Below, one piece after another: positions 18,026 to 37,400 of a stretch of DNA of 37,690 bases. How positions within the stretch are numbered: the first letter of the stretch is position 1; the number at the start of each line of letters is the position of its first letter. Below the pieces are notes generated by a model that made no database searches, had not been told where the DNA came from, and saw nothing but the letters and a program-made list of their open reading frames with translations. A program made the position numbers and the translations under genes. Origin of the DNA: SAR92 bacterium BACL16 MAG-120619-bin48 (GTDB taxonomy: Bacteria; Pseudomonadota; Gammaproteobacteria; Pseudomonadales; Porticoccaceae); NCBI GenBank assembly GCA_001438605.1, contig LIDE01000034.1, positions 1-37,690 of the forward strand, read 5' to 3'.

Positions 18026-18048
18026 ACCACCTAATTAGGGAGTCAAAA

Positions 18049-19395: not shown

Positions 19396-19421
19396 CGATA
19401 GTTATTATATGCTGGTAAAAA

Positions 19422-20375: not shown

Positions 20376-20398
20376 TCTTTAATTTAGTGGAGAACGAT

Positions 20399-20686: not shown

Positions 20687-20747
20687 GTTTGAGACGGGCC
20701 AAAGACCCGGCTGAAAATTAGATTAACCCTGTAGGGACATAAATAGA

Positions 20748-21812
20748 ATGACGAAATCTGTGGAGCCTTATAACGCACTAGCACTTCAGGTCACCTGCCA
20801 TGCAGTCAACGGCCTAAGTTCACGGCAAGACGTCAGCCAGCGCATGGCGAAAACCATCGCCAATTTAGCTGATCAAATTCGCGGCAGTAAAGGCTTTATC
20901 AGTTCATTTAGTGGGCTCAATACTCGGCTTGTGGTGCTGCCTGAGTATTTTTTGACGGGATTCCCTATGGGAGAGAGCGTTGAAGTTTGGTCAGAAAAAG
21001 CCTGTATTGAAATGGAAGGCCCCGAGTATTTGGCGCTGGGTAAAATTTGCCAGGACAATGATATTTTCCTGTCCGGAAATGTCTATGAACTAGATCCAAA
21101 CTTTCCTGGGATTTATTTCCAGGTGAGCTTCATTATCGATCCGTCTGGGGAGGTTATTCTCCGCTATCGGCGTCTCATCTCTATGTATGCTCCGACGCCC
21201 CATGATGTGCTTGAGCGCTATATAGAGGTGTATGGTGAAGAGTCTTTGTTTCCTGTTGTGGATACGGAAATAGGGCGGCTGGCGGCCGTTGCGTCCGAAG
21301 AGATTCTTTATCCCGAGATTATTCGGGCTCTCACATTGAGAGGTGCTGAAGTGATCTGCCACTCCTCCAGTGAAGTTGGAAGTCCGTTGGCAACTCCGAA
21401 AAATATTGCTAAGCAGGCAAGAGCGTATGAAAATATGGTCTATATCGTTTCAGCCAACAGTGCTGGCATTGTGGATATCGCCTTTCCCGCCGCCTCGACT
21501 GATGGAGGCTCAAAAGTTGTCGACTTCCACGGTAGTGTTTTAGCTGAGGCTAGCGTGGGCGAGTCAATGTGTGGTAACGCGGAGGTGGATGTTGCCGCGC
21601 TTCGCAGTGCGCGACTGAGGCCGGGTATGACTAACATCTTGGCCCGACAGAGGCTGGAAATTTTTGCCCCCACCTACGAGAGATTTAACGTGTATCCAGC
21701 CAATAATTTGTTAGCTGATGGCGAAATAATAGTGCCTGACCGTAAGCATTTCGTCGCGACCCAGCTGCAGGTGATTGAAAAGCTCATCAAGACTGGGATT
21801 TTGGCGCAATAG
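20748..21812 (+). CDS. Nitrilase-superfamily (C-N hydrolase) protein with altered active site
   Basis: Protein of 354 residues with the alpha-beta-beta-alpha nitrilase fold: LVVLPEYFLTGFP carries the canonical Glu (E66). At the usual Lys position (YRK.HL) the chain reads YRRLIS, giving Arg at 142; at the nucleophile position (ICxDxxFPE) it reads VASEEILYPE, giving Ser at 183. The codon there is TCC in an intact frame. Amidases and nitrilases of this superfamily need Glu-Lys-Cys, so hydrolysis by the standard mechanism is not supported. It may be a binding or scaffolding protein, or a divergent subfamily with another chemistry. It ends the plus-strand operon begun at 17582. Confidence 0.8.
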   Translation: MTKSVEPYNALALQVTCHAVNGLSSRQDVSQRMAKTIANLADQIRGSKGFISSFSGLNTRLVVLPEYFLTGFPMGESVEVWSEKACIEMEGPEYLALGKICQDNDIFLSGNVYELDPNFPGIYFQVSFIIDPSGEVILRYRRLISMYAPTPHDVLERYIEVYGEESLFPVVDTEIGRLAAVASEEILYPEIIRALTLRGAEVICHSSSEVGSPLATPKNIAKQARAYENMVYIVSANSAGIVDIAFPAASTDGGSKVVDFHGSVLAEASVGESMCGNAEVDVAALRSARLRPGMTNILARQRLEIFAPTYERFNVYPANNLLADGEIIVPDRKHFVATQLQVIEKLIKTGILAQ

Positions 21813-21976
21813 TAACTTCGGATTAAATCAAGCCGTATTTATGCCGCGGGCTTTGTCGAATTAACCTCGATATAGGGTAGAAAGACACCTTGCGTCAACA
21901 CTCCACGCCTCCAATTTAGCCGCTTTTATCAATGATTAGTGCAGACTTTCGAATTAACTACTGACATTAAATGAGT

Positions 21977-21986
21977 TATTGTTATA
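21977..21986. promoter_or_regulatory. Recurring promoter-region motif, copy E
   Basis: TATTGTTATA, the exact reverse complement of TATAACAATA at 11033-11042. It lies 65 bases before the CoA-transferase ATG at 22051, where an operator or a -10 element is plausible. Confidence 0.3.
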
Positions 21987-22050
21987 TCATAGGCTCAAAT
22001 ACGAATAGGGCTGTCTTTAGGCCTTTGTCACCTACTAGGGTTGTTAACTC

Positions 22051-23253
22051 ATGGATAATAAGACATTGCCACTGCAGGGTATAAAAGTGGTTGAGTTTAC
22101 CCATATGGTGATGGGCCCGACCGTAGGTTTGATTCTAGCTGATTTAGGCGCGGAAGTTGTTAAAATAGAGCCTTTGAATGGCGATAAAACTCGCCACCTT
22201 GAGGGCTCCGGTGCTGGATACTTCCCCATGTATAATCGCAATAAAAAAAGTGTCTGTGTGGATTTGAAATCAGAGAAGGGTAGGCAGTTGGCACGACGTC
22301 TGGTCAAAAAATCTGACGTGGTGATAGAGAACTTTCGCTTAGGGGCTATGGACAAACTAGGTTTTGGTTATGAACAGTTATCGGCCTTCAATCCGCGTTT
22401 AATTTATTGTTCTTTGAAGGGCTTTTTGCCGGGCCCCTATGGTAGTCGTACAGCTCTTGATGAGGTCGCGCAGATGATGGGCGGGCTGGCATATATGACA
22501 GGTTTGCCGGGTAAACCGATGCGTGCAGGTTCTTCGGTGATTGACATCACCGGCGGTATGTTCGGTGTTATTGGCATCCTGGCTGCGGTGGAACGTCGTC
22601 ATAAAACGGGCCTCGGTGGTATCGTCACTAGCGCGCTGTTTGAAACGACAGTGTTTATGATGGGTCAGCATATGGCGCAGCAAGCTGTATCAGGTGAGGC
22701 GCCTATGCCGATGTCTCAGCGTCAGTCGGCTTGGTCGATCTATGATGTATTTCGCAGTAAGGAAGGCGAGAGCGTGTTCATCGGCGTTGTTAGCGACACA
22801 CTTTGGGTTAAATTTTGTGAGGTATTTGAACTGGATACCTTTGCGGCTGATGCAGCCCTTGCAAGCAACAGTGGAAGAATTAAATGCCGAGACAGTATTA
22901 TACCGGTTATTACTGCGCTATTTGCGAGCATGAGCAAGCAGGAATTGATGGATCGTCTTGAGCTGGCTGGCATTCCATTCGCGCCGATTAATCGGCCCGA
23001 AGATTTGTTAGATGACCCTCACCTTGAGGCTAGTAAAGGTTTGTTGCCTGTTACGTTAAGTGATGGTAAGAGAACTGGAACGCAAGCCAGACTGCCGGCT
23101 CTTCCTCTTGAAATGAGTGATGGAAAATTTGAGCTTCGCTCCGATCTGCCTCGCGAAGGCGAGCATAGTATCGAAGTAATGCGCGATGCTGGATATAGTA
23201 TAGACGAAATCGATGAGATGCTGCGCGAAGGTTTTGTTAAGGTTGCGATATAA
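22051..23253 (+). CDS. Family III (CaiB/BaiF) CoA-transferase
   Basis: Enzyme of 400 residues. The N-terminal domain (IKVVEFTHMVMGPTVGLILADLGAEVVKIEP) and the SLKGFLPGPYG block are typical, and the catalytic Asp is D165 in SSVIDITGG. Family III enzymes move CoA between carboxylic acids through an aspartyl-CoA thioester; relatives handle succinyl-HMG, itaconate, mesaconate and others. It stands alone on the plus strand, 238 bases after the nitrilase-like gene, and faces the LeuC/LeuD-like pair with 56 bases between stops. It could activate the di-acid that the LeuCD-like enzyme produces or uses (inference). Confidence 0.92.
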   Translation: MDNKTLPLQGIKVVEFTHMVMGPTVGLILADLGAEVVKIEPLNGDKTRHLEGSGAGYFPMYNRNKKSVCVDLKSEKGRQLARRLVKKSDVVIENFRLGAMDKLGFGYEQLSAFNPRLIYCSLKGFLPGPYGSRTALDEVAQMMGGLAYMTGLPGKPMRAGSSVIDITGGMFGVIGILAAVERRHKTGLGGIVTSALFETTVFMMGQHMAQQAVSGEAPMPMSQRQSAWSIYDVFRSKEGESVFIGVVSDTLWVKFCEVFELDTFAADAALASNSGRIKCRDSIIPVITALFASMSKQELMDRLELAGIPFAPINRPEDLLDDPHLEASKGLLPVTLSDGKRTGTQARLPALPLEMSDGKFELRSDLPREGEHSIEVMRDAGYSIDEIDEMLREGFVKVAI

Positions 23254-23309
23254 GTCTGCGGGTCAAAGTAGCGCTATAAGATTGTGGTGCGGGCTCAGAA
23301 AAAGTAAGT

Positions 23310-23933
23310 TCAGTCGAGATATATCCATGGCCTCTCAAGCCTATCTTTTTGTTCAAAAAGGTCAATTTTGTTGTCGAGAACCTGTGTTAGCGAAATGGCA
23401 TCTAGGCCCTTAATTAGCATATTTTTTTCTGCTTCATCCAGTTCAAACTCAAAGTATTTTCCCGTAGACCAATGGATCTTTTGTTCGGGTAATGCAATGA
23501 TGAGATAATTGTGTTGCGGATCTTTCTCAACCCAATCAGCCATCTCTTTAATCATATTATTGCTGAGCACAATGGGCAGAACGCCATTACGGATGCAGTT
23601 GCTTTGAAAGATGCTGCCAAATGACGGCGCGATAATGGCACGTATGCCGTACTCTTTAAGTGCCCAAACTGCATGCTCCCGAGATGAGCCGCAGCCGAAA
23701 TTATCGCCCGAAAGAATAATGCTAGTATTACTGTAGGCCGGACGATTGAGAATAAAATTGAGATTGGCTTCGCGGCTCCCCGGCAAGGTATAGCGCCAGG
23801 CGGCAAACAGACCATCTTTTAATCCTTCCCTAGAAACGCGTGTCATCTCGCGTGATGGGATGATTGTGTCAGTGTCAATGTTGGGGCGCAGCAGGGCGGC
23901 AGCGATTCCTGTGTGACGATCAAATTTATCCAT
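23310..23933 (-). CDS. leuD: Isopropylmalate isomerase-type small subunit
   Basis: Swivel domain of the aconitase superfamily, 207 residues. TGIAAALLRPNIDTDTIIPSRE and the signature GDNFGCGSSREHAVWAL are present, with YGIRAIIAPSFGSIF after it. It partners the large subunit encoded immediately upstream; the two genes are three bases apart and a strong GGAGG precedes this ATG. The pair forms a [4Fe-4S] hydro-lyase. The leu symbol marks homology; the context (no LeuA or LeuB nearby, CoA-transferases around it) favours a catabolic hydratase on a related branched acid. Confidence 0.88.
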   Translation of the reverse strand: MDKFDRHTGIAAALLRPNIDTDTIIPSREMTRVSREGLKDGLFAAWRYTLPGSREANLNFILNRPAYSNTSIILSGDNFGCGSSREHAVWALKEYGIRAIIAPSFGSIFQSNCIRNGVLPIVLSNNMIKEMADWVEKDPQHNYLIIALPEQKIHWSTGKYFEFELDEAEKNMLIKGLDAISLTQVLDNKIDLFEQKDRLERPWIYLD

Positions 23934-23936
23934 GGC

Positions 23937-25334
23937 TTAATCCTCCGCGGCAGAAATATAGCCTTTGCAGGCCGATGCGGCGACTGTTAATGGGCTGGCG
24001 AGATGGGTGCGAGTTTCAGGGCCCTGGCGACCTTCAAAATTTCGGTTGGTCGTGGATATAATACGTTTTTGCTTGCCGAAGGTTTCACCACCAGCATAAA
24101 AACACATGGAGCAACCAGACTCCCGCCACTCAAAGCCTGCCGCTAGGAATATCTTATCTAGTCCCTCTGCTTCGGCAGCTACTTTTACCTGCGAAGAGCC
24201 AGGAACACACACCGCTCTTACCCAAGGGGAAACTGTTTTACCCTGTAAATACTGTGCTGCGGCACGTAGATCGCTTAGCCTGGCATTAGTGCAGGAGCCG
24301 ATGAAAGCTGCATCCAATTTGACCGAGGTCATAGGCATGCCAGGGCTGAGGTCCATGTAGGTAAGCGCTCTTGTCATCGCGTTGGCTGTTATGCTGGATG
24401 TCTCTCGCTTTGGGTCAGGGATCTCATCCTCTATACTGATGGCGTGTTGCGGGCTTGTTCCCCATGTCACAGTGGGTTTGATTTCCTCGCATTGGATGGT
24501 GATTGTTCGGTCAAATTCTGCGCCGATATCTGTATGCAATGTGTTCCAGTGATTAATCGCTTGTTTTAGCTCATTCCCTTTGGGGGCGAATGTACGGTCT
24601 TGGATATAGTCCAAAGTTGATTGATCGACAGCTACCAAACCGGTAAATGCAGAAAACTCCACGGCCATATTACAAAGTGTAAAGCGTGCCTCAATACCTA
24701 GTTCACGGACAGTCTGACCGGAAAATTCTACGGCATATCCTGCACCCCCCCCCGTACCCTCCTGCGAGATAAGATGCAAAATCATGTCCTTGGCGGTTAC
24801 GCCTTGACTGAGCTTGCCACGAAAGTCGACTCTCATGGTTTTGGGTTTCTTAACTCTGAGCGTATTTGTCGCCATAGCGTGCTCTGCTTCAGTAGAGCCA
24901 ACGCCCCAGGCGAGCGCCCCTAGGCCACCAAGCGTACAGGTGTGACTGTCTGGACAAATGAGAGTGGATCCTGGCAGTGCGATACCCAATTCGGCAGAGA
25001 CTACGTGAGAAATCCCTTGATTTTGATCGCCAATGTCAAATAGGCGTATGCCGGCACGCTGGGCGGATTTCCGCGTTGCAACAATAAAGTCTCTGCCGTT
25101 TGGCATAAGTGTTTCGTCGCCGCGCCCCAGTGTGGTGTCCACGATATGGTCCATCGTGCAGAACACATGTTGTGGGGACTTTATTGCTCGCGCGGCATCT
25201 TCGAGCCCCTTAAGTGCGATAGAACCCGTTCGCTCATGAAGGAACATTCGGTCAATGAAAATCAAACACTCACCGTTCCCGATAATAGAAATCTCGTGAA
25301 GTGTCCAAAGTTTTTCAAATAAGGTCTTTAACAT
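23937..25334 (-). CDS. leuC: Isopropylmalate isomerase-type large subunit, diverged substrate loop
   Basis: Aconitase-superfamily large subunit of 465 residues, standard LeuC length. MLKTLFEKLWTLHEI starts it, PDSHTCTLGGLGALAWGVG follows, and the three [4Fe-4S] ligands are C348 (IGSCTNARLSD), C408 and C411 (ESGCSMC). Just after the last Cys, canonical LeuC has LAMNPD and GERCASTSNRNFEGRQG; here it is FYAGGE and KQKRIISTTNRNFEGRQG. The usual Cys before the substrate-recognising NRNFEGR motif is therefore gone. This points to a relative acting on another malate or maleate derivative. A run of nine G on this strand (24744-24752) codes for part of a Gly tract near residue 195. Confidence 0.88.
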   Translation of the reverse strand: MLKTLFEKLWTLHEISIIGNGECLIFIDRMFLHERTGSIALKGLEDAARAIKSPQHVFCTMDHIVDTTLGRGDETLMPNGRDFIVATRKSAQRAGIRLFDIGDQNQGISHVVSAELGIALPGSTLICPDSHTCTLGGLGALAWGVGSTEAEHAMATNTLRVKKPKTMRVDFRGKLSQGVTAKDMILHLISQEGTGGGAGYAVEFSGQTVRELGIEARFTLCNMAVEFSAFTGLVAVDQSTLDYIQDRTFAPKGNELKQAINHWNTLHTDIGAEFDRTITIQCEEIKPTVTWGTSPQHAISIEDEIPDPKRETSSITANAMTRALTYMDLSPGMPMTSVKLDAAFIGSCTNARLSDLRAAAQYLQGKTVSPWVRAVCVPGSSQVKVAAEAEGLDKIFLAAGFEWRESGCSMCFYAGGETFGKQKRIISTTNRNFEGRQGPETRTHLASPLTVAASACKGYISAAED

Positions 25335-25634: not shown

Positions 25635-26342
25635 ATGACCTCTGAGATTATGCTTTTATCGATCACTGCCGCGACCGTTGCTTTTGTGCATACTTTGCTC
25701 GGCCCCGACCATTATTTGCCCTTTGTGGCGATGGCGAAAGCAAGAGGCTGGACCATCGCCAAGACGGTCAAGATTACTATGTTGTTTGGGGTTGGGCACA
25801 TTATGGGCTCAATACTTATCGGCTTGGTTGGGGTATACGCGGGCGTTCAGCTAGGTACGCTTGAGTGGTTAGAGAGTACTCGCGGTTCATTTGCTGCCTG
25901 GATCCTGATTGCTTTCGGGCTTGTATATATGGTCTGGGGCATGCGCAAGGCCTATAAAGACCGACCTCATAGTCATGGTCATCTCCACGGCAGCATGTGG
26001 CATACGCATCAACATAACCATCATGACAAGCATGCCCACGTGCATAAAAAGGCGGATGGGGTTGTCGCACCCTGGACGCTGTTTGTTGTATTCGTGTTGG
26101 GACCCTGTGAGGCGCTGATTCCAGTACTCATGTATCCCGCGGCTAAGCAGAGTATGGCAATAGTTTTCCTCGTTACAAGCATATTTAGTATAGTAACAGT
26201 GCTCACGATGCTGATGGCCGTAGTCTTTTCTGTCTGGGGTTTAAAGGATATTAAACTGCCAAAATTGGAGCGGTTTAGTCATGCACTCGTAGGCGGTACA
26301 ATGTTTGTCTGTGGCTGTTCAATAACATTATTAGGACTATAG
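25635..26342 (+). CDS. NicO/UreH-like divalent-metal transporter with His-rich loop
   Basis: Membrane protein of 235 residues with about six hydrophobic segments. TM1 has HTLLGPDHYLPF (19-30), a variant of the NiCoT/UreH HxxxxDH motif with one extra residue, and VGHIMGS follows (53-59). Between TM3 and TM4 there is a His-rich loop (112-137) with PHSHGHLHGSMWHTHQHNHH and more His to HVHKK: about 12 histidines in 26 residues. Such proteins move Ni, Co or similar ions. ATG at 25635 has GGGG 7 bases upstream; a TTG at 25623 is the alternative. It heads the operon that ends with a polyHis-tailed cupin. Confidence 0.75.
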   Translation: MTSEIMLLSITAATVAFVHTLLGPDHYLPFVAMAKARGWTIAKTVKITMLFGVGHIMGSILIGLVGVYAGVQLGTLEWLESTRGSFAAWILIAFGLVYMVWGMRKAYKDRPHSHGHLHGSMWHTHQHNHHDKHAHVHKKADGVVAPWTLFVVFVLGPCEALIPVLMYPAAKQSMAIVFLVTSIFSIVTVLTMLMAVVFSVWGLKDIKLPKLERFSHALVGGTMFVCGCSITLLGL

Positions 26343-26350
26343 GTTGATTT

Positions 26351-27223
26351 ATGACAGAAGGCTTTAAGGTCGTTGATGCAGTGGTAAACATTTGGACCGC
26401 TGAGGCACTCTCCCACCGGCCCTCTTGGACCGATGAGTTTTTTGTCGGCAAAGTCAAGGGCCAGCATAGTAGTGCAGGAATCAGTCTAGAACAGATGATT
26501 GAATCCATGGACGACGCTAATATTCAGAGCGCTTTTTTAGTTGCAGCTAAAGCCGGTCGGAAAGGTCTGCCCGGTTGCTATCACATGCCTGCGGAGGTAG
26601 TGGCTGAGGCAGTTGCTAAGTATCCAGATCGATTTTTCGGCCTGATTGGTATTGACCCTTTCACCGGAATGGATGGCGTGAGAGCAATGGAAGATGCCGT
26701 AACCAATATGGGCTTTATTGGGGCTCATCTCTACCCCCACTGGTTCGATTTGGCTCCCAATGAGGCGCGTTACTACCCGTTTTACGCGAAATGTATCGAA
26801 CTGGGGATTCCGATTCAAATGCAGGTGGGCCAGTCGCTTATCTACTCAAAGCAGCATCGCTGTCGCTCTGTGGGTCGGCCCATTTACTTAGATGATATCG
26901 CCTGTGATCTGCCCGAACTAAAGCTGATTGGCTCTCATGTTGGTATTCCTTGGCATGATGAAATGATTGCGATGGCCTGGAAGCATGAAAATGTGTACAT
27001 GTGTACCGACGCCCACAGTCCAAAATTCTGGCCGGAAACTGTGATCAAATTCTTGAATTCTTACGGACAGGATAAGGTTATTTTTGCTACTGATTTCCCT
27101 GTGCTAAGGTTTAAACGCACCCTCGATGAAATAGAAGATTTTGGATTAAAGCCAGAGGTTCGAAGAAAGTTTCTCCGAGATAACGTGATCAAGCTATATG
27201 GTCTTGAGGGGCGCATAAAATGA
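26351..27223 (+). CDS. Amidohydrolase-fold (ACMSD-like) protein lacking canonical metal ligands
   Basis: TIM-barrel protein of 290 residues from the amidohydrolase-2/ACMSD group, as shown by AHLYPHWFDLAPNEARYYPFY, GSHVGIPWHDE and FATDFPV (D248). The metal-binding HxH that normally follows the first strand is absent: the chain reads VVDAVVNIWT (8-16). The later metal His in the HTG motif is also missing: it reads IPIQMQVGQS. Only H196 and D248 of the usual ligands remain. The fold and the Asp suggest ancestry in decarboxylase/hydrolase chemistry, but a standard Zn/Mn site is not supported. Its stop overlaps the next ATG by four bases, so it is translated with the CoA-transferase. Confidence 0.75.
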   Translation: MTEGFKVVDAVVNIWTAEALSHRPSWTDEFFVGKVKGQHSSAGISLEQMIESMDDANIQSAFLVAAKAGRKGLPGCYHMPAEVVAEAVAKYPDRFFGLIGIDPFTGMDGVRAMEDAVTNMGFIGAHLYPHWFDLAPNEARYYPFYAKCIELGIPIQMQVGQSLIYSKQHRCRSVGRPIYLDDIACDLPELKLIGSHVGIPWHDEMIAMAWKHENVYMCTDAHSPKFWPETVIKFLNSYGQDKVIFATDFPVLRFKRTLDEIEDFGLKPEVRRKFLRDNVIKLYGLEGRIK

Positions 27224-28422
27224 CGACACCTCTTGCAGGTATTCGCGTTGTAGAAATGACCAGTGTGGTTTTGGGGCCTTATGCTTGCCAGATGCTCGGC
27301 GATCTAGGGGCGGACGTCATCAAGATAGAACCTATCGGTGGTGATACCAACCGCAATCTGGGACCTCACCGTAACAATAGCGATATGAGCGCACTGTTTC
27401 TCACCTGCAACCGTAATAAACGCTCTGTGTCGCTGGACCTTAAATCCTCCAGAGGGAAAGCCGCCGCGATGGAGATTATTAAGACCTCTGATGTGGTCGT
27501 GCATAACTTTAGACCTGCCGCAATGAAGCGCCTGGGTCTTGATTATGAGTGCATTAAGGCTGTTAATCCTGAGGTTATTTACTGTGCCACCTATGGTTAT
27601 AGTAAAAAAGGCCCCTATGGTGACAAAGGAGCGTTGGATGATTCCATTCAGGCAGCCAGCGGTATTGCAATGTTACAAAGCATGGTGGGGGGTGAGCCTC
27701 GTTATTTGCCGACCATTATTGCCGATAAAACAACCGCATTGATGGTCGTGCAAGCAGTGTTAGCCGCATTGTTCCACAAGCAGAGAAGTGGTGAAGGCCA
27801 AGAAATCGAAGTGCCAATGTTTGAGTCGATGGTGTCTTTTATGATGACTGAGCATCTCTGGGGTCAAACCTTTGAGCCCCCTATAGGTAAGGCGGGGTAT
27901 GTCCGCTTGACGGCCAAACACCGGCGACCCTATAAAACGCTGGATGGCCAGTATCTGGCCGTTTTACCCTATTGGGATAATCACTGGGAAACCTTTTGCC
28001 GGCTTTGCGGCCGAGAAGAGTTAGCTGCCGATTCACGTTTTACAGATATGGCGACTCGATTAAAAAATATTGATGAGTCTTACCGTGTAACGGGAGAGAT
28101 TATTTCGTCGCGCTCCCGCGCAGATTGGGTGGAGCTACTCGGTGACACTAATGTCCCCATGATGGTGGTCAATACGTTAGATGACTTGATCACAGATCCC
28201 CAGTTGGTTGAGTCTGGGTTTTGGCAAGAGTTTGACCACTCAACTGAGGGCCGCATAAGGATGAGCAGTCCACCCATCAACTTTAGCAAGACCCCAGCAG
28301 CGATTGGGTCACTCCCTCCACGGCTTGGAGAGCACAGCGCCGAGGTGTTACTTGAGGTGGGCATGTCTCAGAGTGTAATCGATAGTATGTTGGATTCCAA
28401 AGAAGTAAAAATAGTTAATTGA
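27220..28422 (+). CDS. Family III (CaiB/BaiF) CoA-transferase
   Basis: Second full-length CoA-transferase, 400 residues. N-terminal IRVVEMTSVVLGPYACQMLGDLGADVIKIEP, the ATYGYSKKGPYG block and the catalytic Asp at 169 (PTIIADKTTAL) are present. ATGA overlap with the amidohydrolase-fold gene (27220-27223) implies coupling. It differs clearly from the enzyme at 22051 (GALDDSIQAASGIAML versus TALDEVAQMMGGLAYM), so the two probably serve different acids in the pathway. Seven bases separate its stop from the next frame. Confidence 0.92.
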   Translation: MTTPLAGIRVVEMTSVVLGPYACQMLGDLGADVIKIEPIGGDTNRNLGPHRNNSDMSALFLTCNRNKRSVSLDLKSSRGKAAAMEIIKTSDVVVHNFRPAAMKRLGLDYECIKAVNPEVIYCATYGYSKKGPYGDKGALDDSIQAASGIAMLQSMVGGEPRYLPTIIADKTTALMVVQAVLAALFHKQRSGEGQEIEVPMFESMVSFMMTEHLWGQTFEPPIGKAGYVRLTAKHRRPYKTLDGQYLAVLPYWDNHWETFCRLCGREELAADSRFTDMATRLKNIDESYRVTGEIISSRSRADWVELLGDTNVPMMVVNTLDDLITDPQLVESGFWQEFDHSTEGRIRMSSPPINFSKTPAAIGSLPPRLGEHSAEVLLEVGMSQSVIDSMLDSKEVKIVN

Positions 28423-28438: not shown

Positions 28439-28729
28439 ATGACATTTAAAAATTTATTTATTGAGCATGAGCTCTCGCCAGAAATTGAGGCTTGGATTAA
28501 AGAGGAAGTCGATGAGCAAGAGCTGCGCTATAGAGCGGTGTCTCATGATATGGACAATCTAGCGTCGATGCGTGAGAAGTGGTACCAGGAATTTTTTGAT
28601 CGTATTACCACAAGTGGATTTAACGAAGACGGTGACGCGAAAACGCCAATTAAACCAGAACATTTGCCTGTCAAGCCCGAAGGGCGCAATGATCAGGTGA
28701 TCTGGAAATACGGCATAGATGACGAATAA
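28439..28729 (+). CDS. Small acidic protein of unknown function
   Basis: A frame of 96 residues starting at the ATG at 28439, with GAGAGG 9 bases upstream; a TTG at 28430 would add three residues. The sequence is acidic and mostly helical at the start (SPEIEAWIKEEVDEQELRYRA), with a Pro-rich end (PIKPEHLPVKPEGRN). I recognise no family. It sits tightly between the CoA-transferase and the cupin gene, sharing their operon, which makes it likely real. It could be a small subunit or chaperone of one of its neighbours, as a guess from position only. Confidence 0.65.
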   Translation: MTFKNLFIEHELSPEIEAWIKEEVDEQELRYRAVSHDMDNLASMREKWYQEFFDRITTSGFNEDGDAKTPIKPEHLPVKPEGRNDQVIWKYGIDDE

Positions 28730-28769: not shown

Positions 28770-29804
28770 ATGGCACGTCCACACATTGAACCGTTTTGCG
28801 ATAGAGACGTTCACTTTAAGAATATGCGGCTTCCTGGTTTTAGCCGTGGAATGGGATATAAGATGCTCAGCCTTGACGCCGATTCCGGTGCCTGTAGCAT
28901 GACTGTCCAGTTAGATGGCGGTTATCACCAGCCCCCCGGATTTTCATGGTCAGAGCGAGAGATGATCATTGTTGAGGGCGAGCTAAAGGTGGGCGATCAG
29001 ACGTGTCGCAAGGGGCATTATTTCTTTATTCCAGCAGGATACTGTATGCCGGCAATTTCCACTCAGCAAGGCTGTCTGGTAATGATGATGTATAACACAG
29101 GTGAACCGAGTCATGAGCCTTCAGGGGAGCATCATCCTTTGGCGCAAGTAGACCTTTATCACAGCATTGACTCCTATATGGATATTCCCTGGGCTATGGG
29201 TAATCTGGTCAAGCCATCAGTGGCTGCGGGCTGTTTGATAAAGCTGTTGAACTTTAATCCTATTTCCCATGCGATGACTTTTTTGTACTGTATGACTCCA
29301 TGTTTTAAGCAGGACAATATTTCGTATCATGATTGTGCAGAGGAGTCTTATCACCTATGGGGTACGTCTTGGATGATGCAGTTTGGTGATATTCCTACAG
29401 GAGGATACTTCTGGCGACCAGCCTATATAAACCACGGTGCCTTCGCCTCTGAATACGGCTGCATCGCTTTGGGCCGCACGGATTCGAAGCTGTTTAATCA
29501 CTTTCACTATAATCCATGGACGACACCTAAGGAAAATCAAGAGCGAGCAGGGGCACGATTATATCAACGTGATCCGTTACTTTATAAGTGGGCACTCAGT
29601 TACGACCACAATCATCCCCATGGACCAGAAGATTTTGAGAAGACCATGCAGCTGCGTGGTAATGAGCAGGGGCATGATAACGAGCACAAGTCTGATGGCA
29701 AGCGTCACGATCATTGGCATGGGCACGATCATCAAGAAGATGGAAGTCCGCACCACCACCATCATGCCGACGGGAGCCATCATCACCATCACCATGATGA
29801 CTAG
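28770..29804 (+). CDS. Two-domain cupin with natural polyhistidine tail
   Basis: Protein of 344 residues. Residues 1-115 form a cupin half with GYHQPPGFSWSEREMIIVEGE and KGHYFFIPAG (DUF4437-type bicupin pattern). A second half covers about 125-250 (ESYHLWGTSWMMQFGDIPTGGYFWRPAYINHG), with metal-type His/Glu in both. From about residue 280 the chain becomes a His-rich tail with 21 His to the end, including runs of five (328-332) and six (337-342). Codons are mixed CAC/CAT. GGAG lies 7 bases before the ATG. It is the last gene of the operon headed by the NicO-like transporter. Cupins bind Fe, Mn, Ni or Zn; enzyme activity and metal are unknown. Confidence 0.8.
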   Translation: MARPHIEPFCDRDVHFKNMRLPGFSRGMGYKMLSLDADSGACSMTVQLDGGYHQPPGFSWSEREMIIVEGELKVGDQTCRKGHYFFIPAGYCMPAISTQQGCLVMMMYNTGEPSHEPSGEHHPLAQVDLYHSIDSYMDIPWAMGNLVKPSVAAGCLIKLLNFNPISHAMTFLYCMTPCFKQDNISYHDCAEESYHLWGTSWMMQFGDIPTGGYFWRPAYINHGAFASEYGCIALGRTDSKLFNHFHYNPWTTPKENQERAGARLYQRDPLLYKWALSYDHNHPHGPEDFEKTMQLRGNEQGHDNEHKSDGKRHDHWHGHDHQEDGSPHHHHHADGSHHHHHHDD

Positions 29805-29822: not shown

Positions 29823-29847
29823 AAGGGGCTTTATAAGCCCCTTTTTT
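29823..29847 (+). terminator. Rho-independent terminator after the cupin gene
   Basis: A perfect 9-base stem AAGGGGCTT / AAGCCCCTT with a three-base loop TAT, followed directly by a T-run (TTTTTT including the stem end). It lies 18 bases after the cupin stop and ends the 25635-29804 operon. The stem also works for the opposite strand, with an A-run before it. Confidence 0.92.
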
Positions 29848-29898: not shown

Positions 29899-30798
29899 TC
29901 AAGCGAGTTTTTTCTCAATAAGCTCTATTAATTCACCGGCTTGGCCTCGTATCAGGCTGGCACGAAAGTGGGCATATGGCCCTTCGTCAATTGTATAGAC
30001 AGGGCTGTTGGCAGGTAAAACATCTAAGTCCTTGATGGCAAAGCTAATCATGCTAATACCTGAGGTCATAGTAGAGGAACTAGCAGCATTGTCAGGCGAT
30101 GGTATCTTTAAACTGCTGATCTCATCTATTTCAATCAAGTTGCTACCGGCCAAATGTATCACAGCTACCGGATGCCGCTGATCAATAGGTAGGTTATGGG
30201 CTCGATTGACAACTGTTATCTTCGTGTCAAATTGACTGCTCTTTGTGTCAGGGAACTGTTGGTAGATGGCCGCCGCCGCTTCGCGACTGGTTGCTAGTAA
30301 TATGGGAATGAATAGCTTGTCTACAGGGCATCTGGCCACTGGTAGGTCAAACCCGGGGACTGGCGCTTTAATTTGAGTGAGGTAGAGTACTTCTCCCGCC
30401 GACCCAACCACCTGCATCGCCCGGATGTCAGGGCTGATATCGAGGTCTGCTGGTTCCCCGATAATTTCAAATGGGGACTCGCCAAGCTCTTCTCGTAGAC
30501 TGTCGACATCCGTTACACAAATTTCTAGGGATAGCCATCCGGGCTGTTGGAACGGCGTGATTGTAGTTGCATGAGGGTCTTCAATAATACGTAGCCAAGG
30601 ATCTCCAATCAGATTTTCGAGCCAGGTTACTCGGGTACCCTCCAGCGCAGGAAAGTTCCATGCCTGCGCCTGTGCTGCAGAAAGTCGTGTTTGGCTATGT
30701 ATCCGTTGATGCAAATGATCGCACCAGTCAGCCACACAGACATCAAGTCGAGCCGTGGTTATTGTTGAGATTAAAGTTGGTCCTAGTGCGGGCGTCAA
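29899..30798 (-). CDS. Two-domain VOC-like protein, TTG start, paralogue of the gene at 8202
   Basis: Protein of about 299 residues with two VOC modules. LISTITTARLDVCVADWCDHLHQ opens the first, and the family block GEPADL...AMQVVGSAGEVLYLT matches the protein at 8202. The C-terminal ELIELIEK has the Glu expected of a VOC last ligand. No ATG or GTG is available near the N-terminus; a TTG at 30798 is the best start and overlaps the stop of a 10-codon leader that has a strong GGAGG. It follows the GntR gene by 86 bases on the same strand and may be its target. Confidence 0.75.
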   Translation of the reverse strand: MTPALGPTLISTITTARLDVCVADWCDHLHQRIHSQTRLSAAQAQAWNFPALEGTRVTWLENLIGDPWLRIIEDPHATTITPFQQPGWLSLEICVTDVDSLREELGESPFEIIGEPADLDISPDIRAMQVVGSAGEVLYLTQIKAPVPGFDLPVARCPVDKLFIPILLATSREAAAAIYQQFPDTKSSQFDTKITVVNRAHNLPIDQRHPVAVIHLAGSNLIEIDEISSLKIPSPDNAASSSTMTSGISMISFAIKDLDVLPANSPVYTIDEGPYAHFRASLIRGQAGELIELIEKKLA

Positions 30799-30827
30799 AA
30801 GTACTCTCTCTGGTCAGTAGGTTGCAT
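30795..30827 (-). CDS. Possible 10-codon leader ORF coupled to the TTG start
   Basis: ATG at 30827 with GGAGG 3 bases upstream in rank (GGAGG TTT ATG), encoding MQPTDQREYF and ending in TGA at 30797-30795. Its stop overlaps the TTG start of the VOC gene as TTGA. This looks like a translational-coupling leader. It could also be a frameshift that split a longer N-terminus, but the paralogue at 8202 aligns to the TTG, so no extra residues are missing. Confidence 0.45.
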   Translation of the reverse strand: MQPTDQREYF

Positions 30828-30884
30828 AAACCTCCAATGGTAATGGAGGTAGGTTTGAATCCCATTGAGAACCGGCGTAAAGCG

Positions 30885-31664
30885 CTAGTCAAGTTTGAGA
30901 TCCATTTTGTACTGGAATCGTTCAGGATTATAGAGCACATAAAGGTGGTCCATCAGGCGCTCCTGATCGTTGACCCTATTGTATGAACGTCTAGTGAGAC
31001 TGAGCAGTGGACTTCCCACAGGAACTTTCAAGGCTAGTGCGCTTTCAGGAGATGCTGCGCAGGCGCTAATGGTCTGAGTAACGTGAGTGATCTCCAATCC
31101 GTTGTCACGAAAGTAAGTTAGCCGCGGAGTAGTCTCGAGTAATTTTTTATTTTTTGGCTTTACTACACCAGCAGTCCAACTAATATAATAGGCGAAGTTC
31201 AAACCTTCTTTGCTGCGCACACGAATAAGATGTAGTGCTGTATCACCTGCATCGAGTTCAAGTTCGTTAAGGATATCCTGAGGCGGTCGCATCATCTCAC
31301 ATTCCAGAATACTTGCCTCGGAGTTGCGCGCCATACTCTCGATTTCTTGCAGCATACCCGTTAAGGGTGCCTGAACCGGTTTAGGCATGTATTTGTAAAT
31401 GACATGGGTCCCTTTGCCCCTTCGTCTCTCGACTAAGTTTTCGGCAGCAAGTTCGTCCATCGCGCGTTTTGCAGTGATCCTTGAGACCAGAAAGATCGTC
31501 GAAAGCTGCTCTTCGGTAGGCATACGTTCTCCGGCAGGCAATGTGCCATTGAGAATAAATCCATGGAGCAAGCTATATAGTTGATGATAGAGCGGCGTAG
31601 GGGATTCTTTGTTTAATCCTTCACGTATTCTTTTGCTGAATAATGTGTCTAGTGTAATAGGCAT
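30885..31664 (-). CDS. GntR-family regulator, HutC/UTRA type
   Basis: Regulator of 259 residues. The N-terminal winged HTH has the GntR signature LYHQLYSLLHGFILNGTLPAGERMPTEEQLSTIF in family order, with VSRITAKRAMDELAAENLVERRRGKGTHV as recognition helix and wing. The C-terminal UTRA domain (about 105-255) includes LIRVRSKEGLNFAYYISW and PLLSLTRRSYN. UTRA regulators usually sense a small carboxylate or sugar-like ligand and repress nearby catabolic genes. It is divergent from the membrane protein at 32024 across 359 bases that contain a 36-base palindrome, and it is upstream of a VOC gene. It is the best candidate for cluster-wide control. Confidence 0.92.
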   Translation of the reverse strand: MPITLDTLFSKRIREGLNKESPTPLYHQLYSLLHGFILNGTLPAGERMPTEEQLSTIFLVSRITAKRAMDELAAENLVERRRGKGTHVIYKYMPKPVQAPLTGMLQEIESMARNSEASILECEMMRPPQDILNELELDAGDTALHLIRVRSKEGLNFAYYISWTAGVVKPKNKKLLETTPRLTYFRDNGLEITHVTQTISACAASPESALALKVPVGSPLLSLTRRSYNRVNDQERLMDHLYVLYNPERFQYKMDLKLD

Positions 31665-32023
31665 TTAAGGCTGTCCAAAAAAATATTGCTATAATGATAT
31701 ATCAAAATAGATGTAAATCGATGAATTATATCACTGTTAATACAGTAATTACTTGATATTTTGATTGGCTACTGTGACGAATATGTCTATTCATTACAGT
31801 AGCTATGACTTTTTTACGCGCCTAGTGTCTCTGTCGGCTCAAATTAATTTTTCTGTTGGTTTGAGAGACCTCTGCGGGTTGAATTCGAGGTTGTAGTATA
31901 GTCGTAAAAGTGAGTTGAATTTACCCTCTAAATAACTATAATGTTATTACTATAGGACAAATAAAAAAGAATCTTTTGTTTTGTTATTTACGAGTTTATT
32001 GATTGTCTAATTGGAGATTACTG
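31665..32023. promoter_or_regulatory. GntR divergent control region
   Basis: This 359-base spacer has candidate promoters on both strands. For the membrane-protein gene: TTGAAT (31915-31920) and TATAAT (31937-31942), spacing 16. For GntR: TATAAT on the minus strand (31730-31725). It also holds ACTGTTAATACAGT (31733-31746), the perfect 10-mer palindrome TGATATATCA (31695-31704) and the large palindrome entered separately. TAATGTTATT at 31939-31948 is the reverse complement of the recurring AATAACATTA motif and overlaps the -10. Confidence 0.5.
31768..31803. promoter_or_regulatory. 36-base palindrome, candidate GntR operator
   Basis: GCTACTGT, three bases, GAATA, four-base centre, TATTC, three bases, ACAGTAGC. 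Thirteen of the sixteen positions in each arm pair. The half-site ACTGT/ACAGT occurs again as ACTGTTAATACAGT at 31733-31746, 22 bases away. Position between the regulator and its divergent neighbour fits an operator; the binding protein is inferred. Confidence 0.5.
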
Positions 32024-32704
32024 ATGGGTATTACGGAGCTTGCTGTCCTTAAGTGGTTGCATATCATTTCTATGGTTTATTGGCTAGGTGGTGAGTGGGG
32101 CGTTTTTCAAACTTCAAACAATGTTGTCAATAGAGCTCTGAGTATGGATGAGCGCCATCGTCATTTGGAAACGCTCTATAGAATAGATATTCTAGCGCGT
32201 ACGGGTATCATCCTGCTGCTTCCACTTGGCATGCATATGGGTTATCTATGGGGTGTGCAGCCCTATGGTGGAAACTTTTTAACGGTGATGTGGATCTTGG
32301 TGGGGGGCTGGCTTGGGCTTTGCTGGGCGTCGTTTGTCTACCGAGAGACGGACCGCGGAATCACCCTAACCAAGTGGGATGAGGTTATTCGCTTTGTAGT
32401 GATCCCTGTGCTGTTCTTTTGTGGGCTTTTCTCGTTGATGGGCAAGGGACCATTCGCTGCCGGAGATATGCAGAAATGGTTTTCTATGAAAATCATGGGC
32501 TACAGCTTGATGCTGGTAATTGGGTTGAAAATGCGGTTTATTATGCGTGAATGGACTGGCATGTTTCGAGTGCTTGCAGGTGGACCTAATGCTGAAGTGG
32601 AAAATATGTTGGAAAAGTCTCTTCGCACAGGTCGCCGTTTGGCATATGTATACTGGATTGGTATAAGTGCCGTTGCTTTCTTTGGTGTAACCAAGTTTAT
32701 GTAA
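32024..32704 (+). CDS. Integral membrane protein, DUF2269/CopD-like
   Basis: Membrane protein of 226 residues with four to five hydrophobic segments. TM1 contains LKWLHIISMVYWLGGEWG, the H-x-G-G pattern of DUF2269/CopD-like membrane proteins, and later helices include GIILLLPLGMHMGYLWG and GYSLMLVIGLKMRF. Start is the ATG at 32024 with GGAG 9 bases upstream; a TTG at 32003 would add seven residues. The conserved His in helices could bind a metal or heme, but this is uncertain. It is a single gene divergent from GntR and followed by a convergent operon. Function unknown. Confidence 0.7.
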   Translation: MGITELAVLKWLHIISMVYWLGGEWGVFQTSNNVVNRALSMDERHRHLETLYRIDILARTGIILLLPLGMHMGYLWGVQPYGGNFLTVMWILVGGWLGLCWASFVYRETDRGITLTKWDEVIRFVVIPVLFFCGLFSLMGKGPFAAGDMQKWFSMKIMGYSLMLVIGLKMRFIMREWTGMFRVLAGGPNAEVENMLEKSLRTGRRLAYVYWIGISAVAFFGVTKFM

Positions 32705-32828
32705 TTCTACAGCTCAATGACGATGCAGTCGGGCGATGTTAGACAATCGGCGGCGGACTGTCATGGGGGCTATGACGGCCAAATAATAGTGCGGCGTGAT
32801 AGCCCAGAGCTAACATAGGTGATGGGCG

Positions 32829-33755
32829 TTATGGTTGCTGGCCACAAAAGCTGCTTAGTATATCCCCAGCGCTAGCGCTCCAAACGCCCTCCTGCGATGT
32901 AACATACTCGAGTACTTGCTCTAGCTTCTTTATACGATGAGGTTGGCCAAGCATCCAAGGGTGGAGGTTCAGCGCTAAAATACGTCCGCCCTGTGTTTCA
33001 GATTCTTGTAGTAGGAAGTCGCAGGCGTCGCATATTTGCTCAACATAGGCTTCTTCTGAATGGAGATTTTCCATTAGAATGAAACGGTCCTCGAGTTCGT
33101 TGGATAAGGGCATTGCCCACAGCAGACCTTTGTCGGTTCTGAACTGATAGGGCATGTCGTCGTTGCACCAATCACTAAAGTAGTCGATACCATTTGCGGC
33201 CAGAAGTTCAGGCGTATTTGCACTTTCATTGCGAGCCGGACTTAACCAGCCGCGTATGTCCCGCCCGGTGAGGTCCCTTAGTCGACCCAAAGAGCGTTTT
33301 ATCAACTCACTCTCTTCATTGATGTCCTGCCCGCCATAGTGCAATGCATCCATATGCAACCCATGACAGTTAATCTCATCTCCCCGCTCCATAATACTGT
33401 GCAGCAGGTAGGGGTTGTTTTCGGCTAATCGTGTATTTAATGCAAAGGTTGGTTTGACGTTGTACTTATCAAAGGCTTTAAGAAAACGATAAATACCCAC
33501 GCGATTACCGTAATCACGCAAGGTGAAGTGGCGCAGATCAGGATAGGGCATGGTCATGCCCCCGGGCACCGGAAAAGGTTTTCCCTTTTGATCTAGAGGA
33601 AAAAATTGTAAGCAGACATTAACCCAAAGGGCGAGTCTATTATTGTTTGGCCAGCTGACTGGGTTGCGGTCAGATAGCATGGACCAATCGTAGCGGTCAT
33701 GGTCCATACCATATCTGCGATGGGGGTACTGCAGGTACTCTGGGTCTAGTGGCAT
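32829..33755 (-). CDS. NodB/PuuE-type polysaccharide-deacetylase-fold hydrolase 1
   Basis: Protein of 308 residues with the NodB fold in its PuuE-like branch: TLRDYGNRVGIYRFLKAFDK is the typical block, and NCHGLHMDALHYGG gives metal-site His (H-x3-H followed by LH). ILALNLHPWMLGQPHR near the C-terminus has the last conserved His. The group includes a cofactor-free allantoinase and other cyclic-amide or N-deacetylating enzymes. AGGAG lies 8 bases before the ATG. Last gene of a three-gene minus-strand operon; two bases separate it from its paralogue. Substrate unknown. Confidence 0.85.
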   Translation of the reverse strand: MPLDPEYLQYPHRRYGMDHDRYDWSMLSDRNPVSWPNNNRLALWVNVCLQFFPLDQKGKPFPVPGGMTMPYPDLRHFTLRDYGNRVGIYRFLKAFDKYNVKPTFALNTRLAENNPYLLHSIMERGDEINCHGLHMDALHYGGQDINEESELIKRSLGRLRDLTGRDIRGWLSPARNESANTPELLAANGIDYFSDWCNDDMPYQFRTDKGLLWAMPLSNELEDRFILMENLHSEEAYVEQICDACDFLLQESETQGGRILALNLHPWMLGQPHRIKKLEQVLEYVTSQEGVWSASAGDILSSFCGQQP

Positions 33756-33757
33756 AC

Positions 33758-34672
33758 TTAAATCTCCTGTTTGGCCACGATGTCGGCAGTCACGGCATCG
33801 TAATAATGATCGATAAAATAGTCAGCTATTTCACGACCAGTCGTGACCCATACATCCGAATGCCCTGTGATGTATTCGAGCGCCTCTTCATAGGCTTTCA
33901 TTCGGTGAGGACAGCTAACTTGATAGTTATGCGTAGGGATACACATGACGGTCCCACTGGTATCGCCTTCTTCATACAAGCGATCAAAATTATCTTTGAT
34001 CATCTGCCCATAGCGACGAGGCTCCACTTTATTGACGGCATAGGCAATAGTGTCGTTCATTTCAAGTGAGTATGGGACAGATATAAACTTGGCGCCGCTG
34101 CGTGTGCGCACAGGAGTGGGCTGATCGTCATGGAAAAGATCGCAGGTATAACTGCCGCCAGCCTCTGCAAACAGGTCGAGCGTCACCTCCGAATGGGACA
34201 GTGCTGGTGCTAAGTATCCCGCCGGCTTTATACCGGTATGGCGCTCAATAGTGGCAATCGAATCAAGAATCATTTCTCGTTCCTGATCCTCCGAGAGCCC
34301 ATATGTATAGCGAGTGTTGTAGATGCCGTGACTGAAAAACTCCCAGTTACGTTCTTTGCACAGTTCGATAATCTCAGGATGGTGATCGCAGAGTGCCGTG
34401 GATAATGAGATGGATCCACGGATACCATATTTTTCCAGTAGATTCATCTGACGCGCATGGCCGACACGGTTGCCATAATCACGAATGGTATAACCGGGCA
34501 GGGCAGGACTGGGTTGCGGCCAGGCTTTACGGTGCGGATTGAGCGGTGGATTAAGCTCATAGAATTCGATATTGGGCGCCACCCAAAAAGCCAGTTTTGC
34601 GTCATTGGGCCAACGGATCTTTGGGCGATTTTGGTAGGGCCAGTAGTCATACAATGCTGGAGTCTCATTCAT
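33758..34672 (-). CDS. NodB/PuuE-type polysaccharide-deacetylase-fold hydrolase 2
   Basis: Protein of 304 residues, paralogous to its neighbour: TIRDYGNRVGHARQMNLLEKYG and WEFFSHGIYNTRYTYG match in order, and CIPTHNYQVSCPHR is the C-terminal block. At the motif-2 position only one His remains (SHGIYN against CHGLHMDALH in the paralogue), so the two probably differ in metal binding or substrate. It follows the isochorismatase-type gene by 40 bases. Adjacent but diverged copies suggest either a two-subunit enzyme or two successive hydrolytic steps. This is inference. Confidence 0.83.
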   Translation of the reverse strand: MNETPALYDYWPYQNRPKIRWPNDAKLAFWVAPNIEFYELNPPLNPHRKAWPQPSPALPGYTIRDYGNRVGHARQMNLLEKYGIRGSISLSTALCDHHPEIIELCKERNWEFFSHGIYNTRYTYGLSEDQEREMILDSIATIERHTGIKPAGYLAPALSHSEVTLDLFAEAGGSYTCDLFHDDQPTPVRTRSGAKFISVPYSLEMNDTIAYAVNKVEPRRYGQMIKDNFDRLYEEGDTSGTVMCIPTHNYQVSCPHRMKAYEEALEYITGHSDVWVTTGREIADYFIDHYYDAVTADIVAKQEI

Positions 34673-34712
34673 AGCTGCCGTAACCCCTGGTCAGTTATTG
34701 AAGATGTGGCGC

Positions 34713-35372
34713 TCATTTGTTTAGACGATCAAAGACTTCCTGCACATCCATAACGTCAGCATATTTAATGGCGAGATCGGTCAGGTTGGCAAAATGGTAA
34801 CTCTCATGCTTATCCGCCACACATTGTTCCGGTATTATGGTGCGATAGCCTCTGGATAATGAATCCACCGCCGTGGCGCGAATACAGCCTGAGGTTGAAC
34901 CGCCCGTTAAAATAACGGTGTCGACCTTGTGCCAAACGCAGAGTGACTGGAGTTGGGTTTCAAAAAAGGCAGAGGGCATTTTTTTACAATAAATGACATC
35001 GTTTACCTTATCAATTTCAAGGCGATCGTCAAACTCACTGCGCTGCGAGCCGAAGCCTATATTCTGCAGAGAATCTGGGGTGTTGGTTCTGGTGCCCCAG
35101 ACGCCGCAATCCTCACCGGATTCCATATAGGCTACTTGCGTCCAAACCACGGGCCACCCAATTTTTCGGAACTGCTTGGCTAGTTGGTTAATATGCTGCA
35201 TTTGATTGGGGTCTGTTTCATAGGCTGTTTTAAATAGGTCTGTTCGCGTATAGGCCTTTTGTGGGTCGATATTCACCAAAATGGCTTTATCGCCAAAGCC
35301 AAAACGCGGTCTAGATGGATTTGATTTTAGCTCGAGGTATATTTCACGAGCTGTTTTGTCGCTGGATTCCAT
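34713..35372 (-). CDS. Isochorismatase-family cysteine hydrolase (amidase-like)
   Basis: Protein of 219 residues with the Asp-Lys-Cys triad of the family: D36 in VNIDPQKAYT, K130 in YCKKMPSAFF and C163 in GGSTSGCIRATAVDS. The SGCIRATAVD form resembles N-carbamoylsarcosine amidase and maleamate amidase (NicF) more than true isochorismatase. Such enzymes release ammonia (or carbamoyl) from small amides. CGGAG is 6 bases before the ATG. It leads the operon with the two PuuE-type genes; a cyclic-amide-opening then amide-hydrolysis sequence is a natural reading, as inference. Confidence 0.87.
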   Translation of the reverse strand: MESSDKTAREIYLELKSNPSRPRFGFGDKAILVNIDPQKAYTRTDLFKTAYETDPNQMQHINQLAKQFRKIGWPVVWTQVAYMESGEDCGVWGTRTNTPDSLQNIGFGSQRSEFDDRLEIDKVNDVIYCKKMPSAFFETQLQSLCVWHKVDTVILTGGSTSGCIRATAVDSLSRGYRTIIPEQCVADKHESYHFANLTDLAIKYADVMDVQEVFDRLNK

Positions 35373-36276: not shown

Positions 36277-37008
36277 ATGTCTCATAGAACTATCCGCGGA
36301 ACTATCCGCTATACAAGTAAAAAGCCTGAACGGTTGAATCAGGAGCGCGGTAGAGAATACTTTACCCTGACTCAGCAAGCTGATGGTACTGATGTGCTGC
36401 TGGCCCATTGTGAAATCGATGACGGGCCCAATGTGATTCGTGATATTTCTTTAGCGCTTAGTCATGCGGACTCGAGCCCTCTGGATTGCTCGGTTCGATT
36501 GACTGTGGGTGATGAATTTGAAGGTAGTGGTTGGATGCGCTTTGCTGACGGCTATGCTGAGTGCGAGACATTTAATCGTAAAGATGGTCGCATGACTCAA
36601 CGGATCGAAACAGATAAGCCGGTGGCCTGGTTGCAATCACACCCCATTGTTGGGGATGCGTTGTTGATGAAATTATACGACTTGAAGCGAGGACCAGGAA
36701 AGATCTTTTTCCCAAATTTGTTTCTTACTTCTCCCGACCATCGCGGTGCGACGGGTCCGCTGTTGTTTGTTACCGGCTTCGCGATAGTGTACGTTGGAGA
36801 TGAGAGGATTGCGGTAGAGGCCGGCGAATTCGATGCTCGGCATTTTCAGATAACGGGAACTGCAGGTAATTTACCTGAGGAGCATCCGCCCTACGACGTG
36901 TGGTGCACGGCAGACGATGATTATATCTTGCTTAAGGCCAGTGCCGGAGGGTATATGCAGACACACTATGAGCTTACTGATTTAACCAGAGACGAGATTA
37001 ACGAATGA
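36277..37008 (+). CDS. Conserved-looking protein of unknown function
   Basis: Soluble protein of 243 residues, no signal peptide or membrane segment. It appears to be mostly beta (RGTIRYTSKK..., YAECETFNRKDGRMTQRIE, LLFVTGFAIVYVGDERIAVEAGEFDARHFQI). I recognise no family with confidence; the layout vaguely recalls lipocalin- or DUF3108-like beta proteins. GAGAAG is 6 bases before the ATG. Its stop overlaps the next ATG (37005-37008), so it is coupled to a CoA-transferase and probably acts in the same step. Confidence 0.75.
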   Translation: MSHRTIRGTIRYTSKKPERLNQERGREYFTLTQQADGTDVLLAHCEIDDGPNVIRDISLALSHADSSPLDCSVRLTVGDEFEGSGWMRFADGYAECETFNRKDGRMTQRIETDKPVAWLQSHPIVGDALLMKLYDLKRGPGKIFFPNLFLTSPDHRGATGPLLFVTGFAIVYVGDERIAVEAGEFDARHFQITGTAGNLPEEHPPYDVWCTADDDYILLKASAGGYMQTHYELTDLTRDEINE

Positions 37009-37400
37009 GTCAACCGCTTGTAGGTACGAGGATCCTCGATTTAACGCATATGCTGTCGGGGCCCTATGGCAGTATGATCTTGGCTGATCTTGGTGCCGAA
37101 ACCATTAAAGTTGAACCACTGCAGGGGGAGGGGACGCGAAAGCTACTGGCGACAGACCCCAACAACTCATTGAATGGAATGGGTGCCTATTTTATAACCC
37201 TAAATCGCAACAAAAAGAGCGTTTCGATTGACCTTAAGACTGAGCAGGGCCTCGAGGTTTTTAAGGCTTTGGTTGCCGAGGCGGATATTGTGCTGAGTAA
37301 TTTTGGTGCGGGCGTGCCCGAGCGCCTCGGCATTGACTATGAATCTTTAGCCAAGGTAAACTCCCGTATTATTACCTGTGAATCGCCCCCTGTTTGCTAG
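37005..37400 (+). pseudogene. Family III CoA-transferase, truncated by an IS3-family element
   Basis: The first 125 or so residues are a normal family III N-terminus: TRILDLTHMLSGPYGSMILADLGAETIKVEP, then NRNKKSVSIDL and IDYESLAKVNSRIITC. The frame then enters foreign DNA at about 37379 and stops after SPPVC. The catalytic-Asp region, about residue 165 in the other two copies, is missing, so this fragment cannot work as it stands. The 3' remainder may lie beyond the IS, outside the window. It is coupled by ATGA overlap to the unknown gene upstream. Confidence 0.88.

Follow-up and report, generated by a model that had tools for sequence, protein, structure and literature searches.

Histidine-rich tails are already known from nickel proteins. 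Excerpts of PMC7055735 describe SlyD, whose variable tail abounds in His, Cys, and acidic residues, binds several Ni, and is important for the maturation of hydrogenase; a His-rich tail in UreE that is dispensable for urease maturation; and His-rich regions in HypB and SlyD that are suggested to store nickel. In low-complexity regions of nickel-binding proteins His is enriched 33-fold, and both His and Asp are enriched in such stretches of nickel-binding and cobalamin-related proteins (excerpts of PMC6821194). With respect to transport, UreH-family transporters are predicted nickel permeases, some of which have been shown to carry nickel (excerpt of PMC2667541), and RcnA has a His-rich loop (excerpt of PMC11247825). 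Here, we describe a two-cupin (bicupin) gene in a 37,690-nt stretch of SAR92 bacterium BACL16 MAG-120619-bin48 (contig LIDE01000034.1; the window), whose product shares with SlyD, UreE, and HypB, as the excerpts characterize them, a variable stretch rich in His and acidic residues. SlyD, UreE, and HypB are separate chaperones, whereas here the stretch sits on the apparent metal-using enzyme itself, and the bicupin tails are nearly Cys-free (1 Cys in 2262 residues), unlike this comparison set. The point of difference is thus a His tail on a probable metal-using enzyme. A His-rich N terminus on a Cu,Zn superoxide dismutase was considered as a precedent and dropped, since the excerpts of the sources did not show it.

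The bicupin ORF (28770-29804, + strand) encodes 344 aa between an ATG start and a TAG stop. Residues 1 to 282 (28770..29615, + strand) form a core of two cupin domains, delimited by Pfam, homologue loci, and invariant residues, and residues 283 to 344 (29616..29801, + strand) form the His-rich C-terminal tail, recognized from the sequence and as a low-confidence part of the structure model. As the original prediction had claimed, this is a native polyhistidine tail: 21 of the last 65 residues are His, among them a His5 run (29751..29765, + strand) and a His6 run (29778..29795, + strand) read from sequence and codons, and the 19 His among the 62 residues after position 282 are encoded by a mixture of 11 CAT and 8 CAC codons. 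By comparison, in 329 other ORFs of the same loci (called mechanically, at least 150 aa each) the C-terminal 65 residues contain 1.7 His on average and 9 at most; at the His frequency of these ORFs (0.029), the binomial probability of at least 21 His in 65 residues is ~1e-16. Native proteins with His5 and His6 runs would be likely contaminants in metal-affinity purification. The predicted native terminator stands in part: a terminator-like hairpin of 9 pairs followed by five T lies just 3' of the bicupin stop codon (29823..29843, + strand), but it is only this position that supports it, the region holding 3 such sites versus 4.7 in shuffles.

Contigs were searched with residues 1 to 282 alone, so that there was no bias towards the tail. 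We found 45 loci at 56 to 100% identity; the 100% match is L004 (Porticoccaceae UBA4026), whose residues 1 to 282 equal those of the window's bicupin and whose tail is the same. Loci L010 and L027 come from the cultured carriers Exilibacterium tricleocarpae R142 and Pseudohalioglobus sediminis NY5. A His/Asp/Glu-rich low-complexity terminus is common to these close homologues (45/45 loci), which rules out both a vector tag, as predicted, and a strain-specific expansion, and which is the opposite of the uniformly tail-less homologues that had been named as counterevidence. The tails hold 4 to 28 His after residue 282 and are 21 to 79 aa long, with 19 to 37% His (median, 27%) and a median of 23% Asp plus Glu; pooled, they comprise 27.5% His, 22% Asp plus Glu, and the single Cys. 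The HNHPHGPEDFE stretch at the tail start is mostly retained, and beyond it order and length vary. The tail is thus conserved as a property while its sequence drifts, and its make-up resembles that of low-complexity stretches in proteins that bind Ni or Co. The gene itself, single-copy in this genome, is rare: 2 of 114 relatives have a match, and at the phylum level so do 3 of 398 genomes, one of them the window's own and two with distant matches only. The viral contigs searched and PHROGs yielded no relative.

Low-complexity drift, in which a His-rich repeat is tolerated without function, would be compatible with the variation in tail length and order, with HD repeats that look slippage-prone (L014 and L030), and with a His-rich state that changes at least seven times on a 109-row tree. 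Against this, all 45 loci retain His even where core identity falls to 68% within the window's clade (56% with L044), the rest of the tail changes while His stays, and the codons are mixed. Across the 21 nearest pairs (non-overlapping, with L005, L044, and one unpaired row left out), aligned tail His are identical at 446/490 positions versus 630/890 for other residues, a count biased by an alignment matrix that rewards His-His matches and therefore support rather than proof. In addition, differences at codons with His in the same pairs are mostly synonymous (78 synonymous versus 44 non-synonymous). We consider functionless drift very unlikely.

With respect to the wider family, a threshold of E 1e-5, which admits weak matches, gives a bicupin match in 134 of the 296 genomes in the order of L044, and as many as seven in a single genome. 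One genome (G622) has at least four close full-core copies, the most among the matches listed, and such multiple close copies suggest paralogues for different substrates. From this order 70 matches were examined (30 loci and 40 fetched), fewer than were listed, the total being at least the number listed. Tails were called His-rich at a minimum of 4 His and 15% His. The tree, obtained by a short search from these matches together with the 45 loci, omits L005 (which holds an X), scores below 380 bits, sequences that cover the core incompletely, and any core that duplicates one from the 45 loci; it contains 88 His-rich and 21 His-poor rows, a proportion that is not a family-wide rate because only 70 matches, from a partial list, were examined, and the seven state changes are a minimum. 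All 46 rows of the window's clade (SH-aLRT 100), which excludes L044, are His-rich; beyond it, the rows examined have rich tails in 42 cases and poor or absent tails in 21. L148, L150, and L151 stop exactly at the core end and have no tail, and they keep the domain 2 motif (H187, EE, and H222) and a small partner gene upstream. The core can therefore exist without the tail, which is accessory. Distant bicupins have 0 to 2 His after the matched part, both on sphingomonad plasmids (L053, L054, and L055, all without a His tail, the three examined among six plasmid records at 26 to 30% identity) and in weak matches from the window's own order (among L104 to L115). In L103 and L109 (G927), one bicupin gene is spread over two overlapping reading frames, which looks like a frameshift or a misassembly.

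The bicupin domains of the original prediction are borne out by Pfam, with DUF4437 (8e-13; 48.5 bits against a cut-off of 24) and Cupin_7 (4e-10, in two stretches; 39.9 bits against a cut-off of 27) both over cut-off. The domain 2 motif from H187 to H222 (YHDC-EE-YH...INHG; 29328..29435, + strand) is invariant in 43 aligned bicupin sequences, in which H187, D188, C189, E191, E192, H195, H222, and H246 do not vary. By eye, the alignment of 10 tail-less distant rows shows His in the H187 column in 9 and conservation of the EE and H222 columns in all 10. Some members of the wider family have Ser or Ala in place of C189, and the tail-less sphingomonad bicupins L054 and L055 have His there. Following the general cupin motif, we propose H187, E191 or E192, and H222 as the likely metal ligands. 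A metal site in domain 2 is likely from these residues, and no matching His ligands were seen in domain 1.

Two AlphaFold2 models of the bicupin have a mean pLDDT of 56; domain 1 is good, domain 2 falls below 50 over residues 180-224 and 180-226, and the tail block, from residue 281 on, lies at 29 to 38. Given the low confidence in domain 2, we claim no metal geometry. The best match both by sequence (2e-8) and by fold (Foldseek, 3e-12) is 2QDR, a "putative dioxygenase" of Nostoc punctiforme, and the best shared sequence stretch covers residues 30-148 only. The Foldseek query was the full-length model, confident only in domain 1, and the matches after 2QDR are ChrR, quercetin dioxygenase, and other cupins. 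Acetylacetone dioxygenase (3BAL), 2,4'-dihydroxyacetophenone dioxygenase (5BPX), quercetin dioxygenase (1Y3T and 8HFB), and the DMSP lyase DddK (5TFZ), all catabolic metal enzymes, share the cupin fold at about 1e-6 to 1e-4, and the bicupin sequence search, taken to an E value of 1, retrieved none of them. A literature search found no mention of DUF4437 and no function for the DUF4437/Cupin_7 (ChrR-like) family, and one on bicupins with polyhistidine gave a barley paper as its sole match.

Directly upstream of the bicupin lies a gene for a small protein of 96 aa with no Pfam family (28439..28729, + strand); its ORF is listed as 99 aa from TTG 28430, and the ATG start at 28439 was read from homologues. 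This small partner is encoded upstream of the bicupin in 44/45 loci, at a gap of 17 to 159 nt, and in the 45th (L035) the sequence begins 76 nt before the bicupin, cutting off the upstream region. Among wider family members with flanks examined, it adjoins the bicupin in 34/43 and is not in view for 9 (a count that omits the cut L069 and the split L103 with L109 and includes some repeats of the 45 loci). The small partner may be a subunit of the bicupin enzyme or activate it, and the pair would constitute an uncharacterized two-gene unit. The adjacency of the two genes in 44/45 loci could also fit a tail that serves assembly, with His strands bridged by metal or charge holding together oligomers, the small partner, or the transporter of the operon, and a metal-dependent polyhistidine tetramerization motif has been solved (excerpt of PMC10382482). 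The small partner is nevertheless also encoded beside the tail-less L148, L150, and L151, and a tail length ranging from 21 to 79 aa speaks against such a role, which we regard as highly doubtful.

The operon further encodes a membrane transporter with a His-rich loop (25635..26342, + strand; ORF listed from TTG 25623), for which DsbD_2 (PF13386) is the only Pfam match over cut-off and NCBIfam gives no match. An alignment of 19 sequences shows the motifs HTLLGPDHY, GHxxGS, and LGPCE; the His count of the loop reaches 13, and two of the 24 proteins have 0 and 1. By its motifs we read it as a putative UreH-family member. Like the UreH- and RcnA-type Ni/Co transporters, it is a membrane protein in which an early His/Asp motif is combined with a loop rich in His, and it differs in matching only DsbD_2 over cut-off; we regard it as a probable metal transporter. 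Distant relatives adjoin a CobW-type GTPase gene in 2/2 scanned loci (L175 and L176, out of three fetched, L177 having been left out of the scan) and in one of the two (L175) also a CDF cation-efflux gene; the closest specific hit for the CDF product is a zinc exporter, at a score below cut-off. Such neighbors fit metal traffic rather than one particular metal. No tie between the transporter and a Ni enzyme was found: five Ni-SOD loci showed no transporter relative within flanks of ~1.5 kb or less, which are too short for this comparison. This genome (99.6% complete) has one clear transporter copy, and urease alpha, NiFe hydrogenase, and Ni-SOD are all without a match in it, which leaves the bicupin as a candidate user of the transporter's metal.

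The transporter gene lies upstream on the same strand in 24/45 bicupin loci. It is not upstream in the other 21, of which 12 have at least 4 kb upstream in view, and all 21 keep the His-rich tail; a copy elsewhere was found in 5 of these 21 genomes (of unstated completeness), one being a fragment at a contig end. A strict linkage of tail and transporter is ruled out by these tailed loci and by genomes without a detected copy. The median number of tail His is 17 with an adjacent transporter versus 11 without (p = 0.011); the tree did not confirm this difference, since well-supported branches give 4 independent contrasts and the number of His differs in no more than 2 of them. Metal delivery from the transporter, as originally proposed, thus fails as a general rule, and it may apply in part of the clade.

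Our preferred reading, to which we assign a probability of about 50%, is that the tail is a cis-acting metal reservoir that keeps the single metal site, in domain 2, of a metal-dependent bicupin loaded within a catabolic operon. The bicupin would be a two-cupin enzyme acting together with the small upstream protein, in an operon that degrades a probably nitrogen-containing compound. We infer that its disordered His/Asp-rich tail binds a divalent transition metal and, as a local reservoir, passes it to the domain 2 site (H187, E191/E192, and H222) when metal is scarce; where the operon includes the His-loop transporter, that protein would probably import the metal. Nickel or cobalt is favored, as a guess from the tail composition and the transporter type. 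The tail-less L148, L150, and L151, with intact motif and small partner, count against this reading, as do the dispensable tail of UreE, the absence of the transporter beside 21 tailed loci, and the 9 of 43 wider family members with no small partner in view. These same tailed loci and intact tail-less cores mean that loading its own site need not be the task of the tail, which could instead be a general metal buffer or detoxification sponge of the cell, with the cupin site acquiring metal by itself; the suggested nickel stores of HypB and SlyD (excerpt of PMC7055735) are in line with this. Yet the tail sits on a single-copy gene in an apparent catabolic operon with a GntR-type regulator nearby, and no evident metal-response gene is tied to it, so that we hold a general buffer to be unlikely. 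Since the closely similar cores of one family bear His tails that are long, short, or missing, and a transporter is co-encoded in some cases and not in others, the value of a built-in metal reservoir is directly testable in what amounts to a natural experiment.

Between transporter and small partner, the operon encodes an amidohydrolase (Amidohydro_2, PF04909, 4.9e-44; 26351..27223, + strand), with counterparts in 30/45 loci at no less than 40% identity, and a class III CoA-transferase (CoAT2, PF02515, 2.8e-110; 27220..28422, + strand), with counterparts in 24/45 loci at the same threshold. On both sides, 17582-25334 and 29899-35372 form what appears to be an island of genes for the catabolism of a nitrogen-containing compound. 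Further products encoded in the window are class III CoA-transferases, a LeuCD-type hydratase, an HMG-CoA-lyase-like enzyme, a CN hydrolase, an N-carbamoylsarcosine-amidase-like protein, a GntR regulator, and two deacetylase-fold enzymes related to PuuE (32829-33755 and 33758-34672). Identity of the latter with the allantoinase PuuE is rejected, as TIGR03212 scores of 108 and 118 bits against a cut-off of 425 make them related, not PuuE. Some bicupin loci additionally carry hydantoinase A or B. 3QBU, a solved protein that a fungal cyclic imidase, HxnM, resembles (excerpt of PMC9304392), is also matched by the window's deacetylase-fold protein. Taken together, the gene content suggests breakdown of an N-heterocycle via alkyl-maleate and CoA steps.

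Sphingomonas plasmid pJE1 (L056, 1-40000) has counterparts of ten window genes at 27 to 67% identity (isochorismatase-type, 67%; lyase, 65%; deac2, 55%), adjoining a tail-less bicupin, and these 40 kb give no match to the transporter, the Amidohydro_2 protein, the small protein, or the CN hydrolase. A literature search on strain JE1 and its plasmid did not return the strain name among the matches listed. A fuller version of our reading is quite unlikely as a whole: a Ni/Co two-component cupin with the tail as its own metallochaperone, and with an importer in many genomes, would open or split an N-heterocycle (imide, lactam, or pyrrole-like) in a pathway shared with the sphingomonad plasmid. 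Furthermore, one pJE1 gene has the annotation REDY-like HapK, a name from prodigiosin clusters, which may hint at a pyrrolic substrate. At 37005-37400, the window holds a 131-aa ORF that matches only the first third of a class III CoA-transferase profile.
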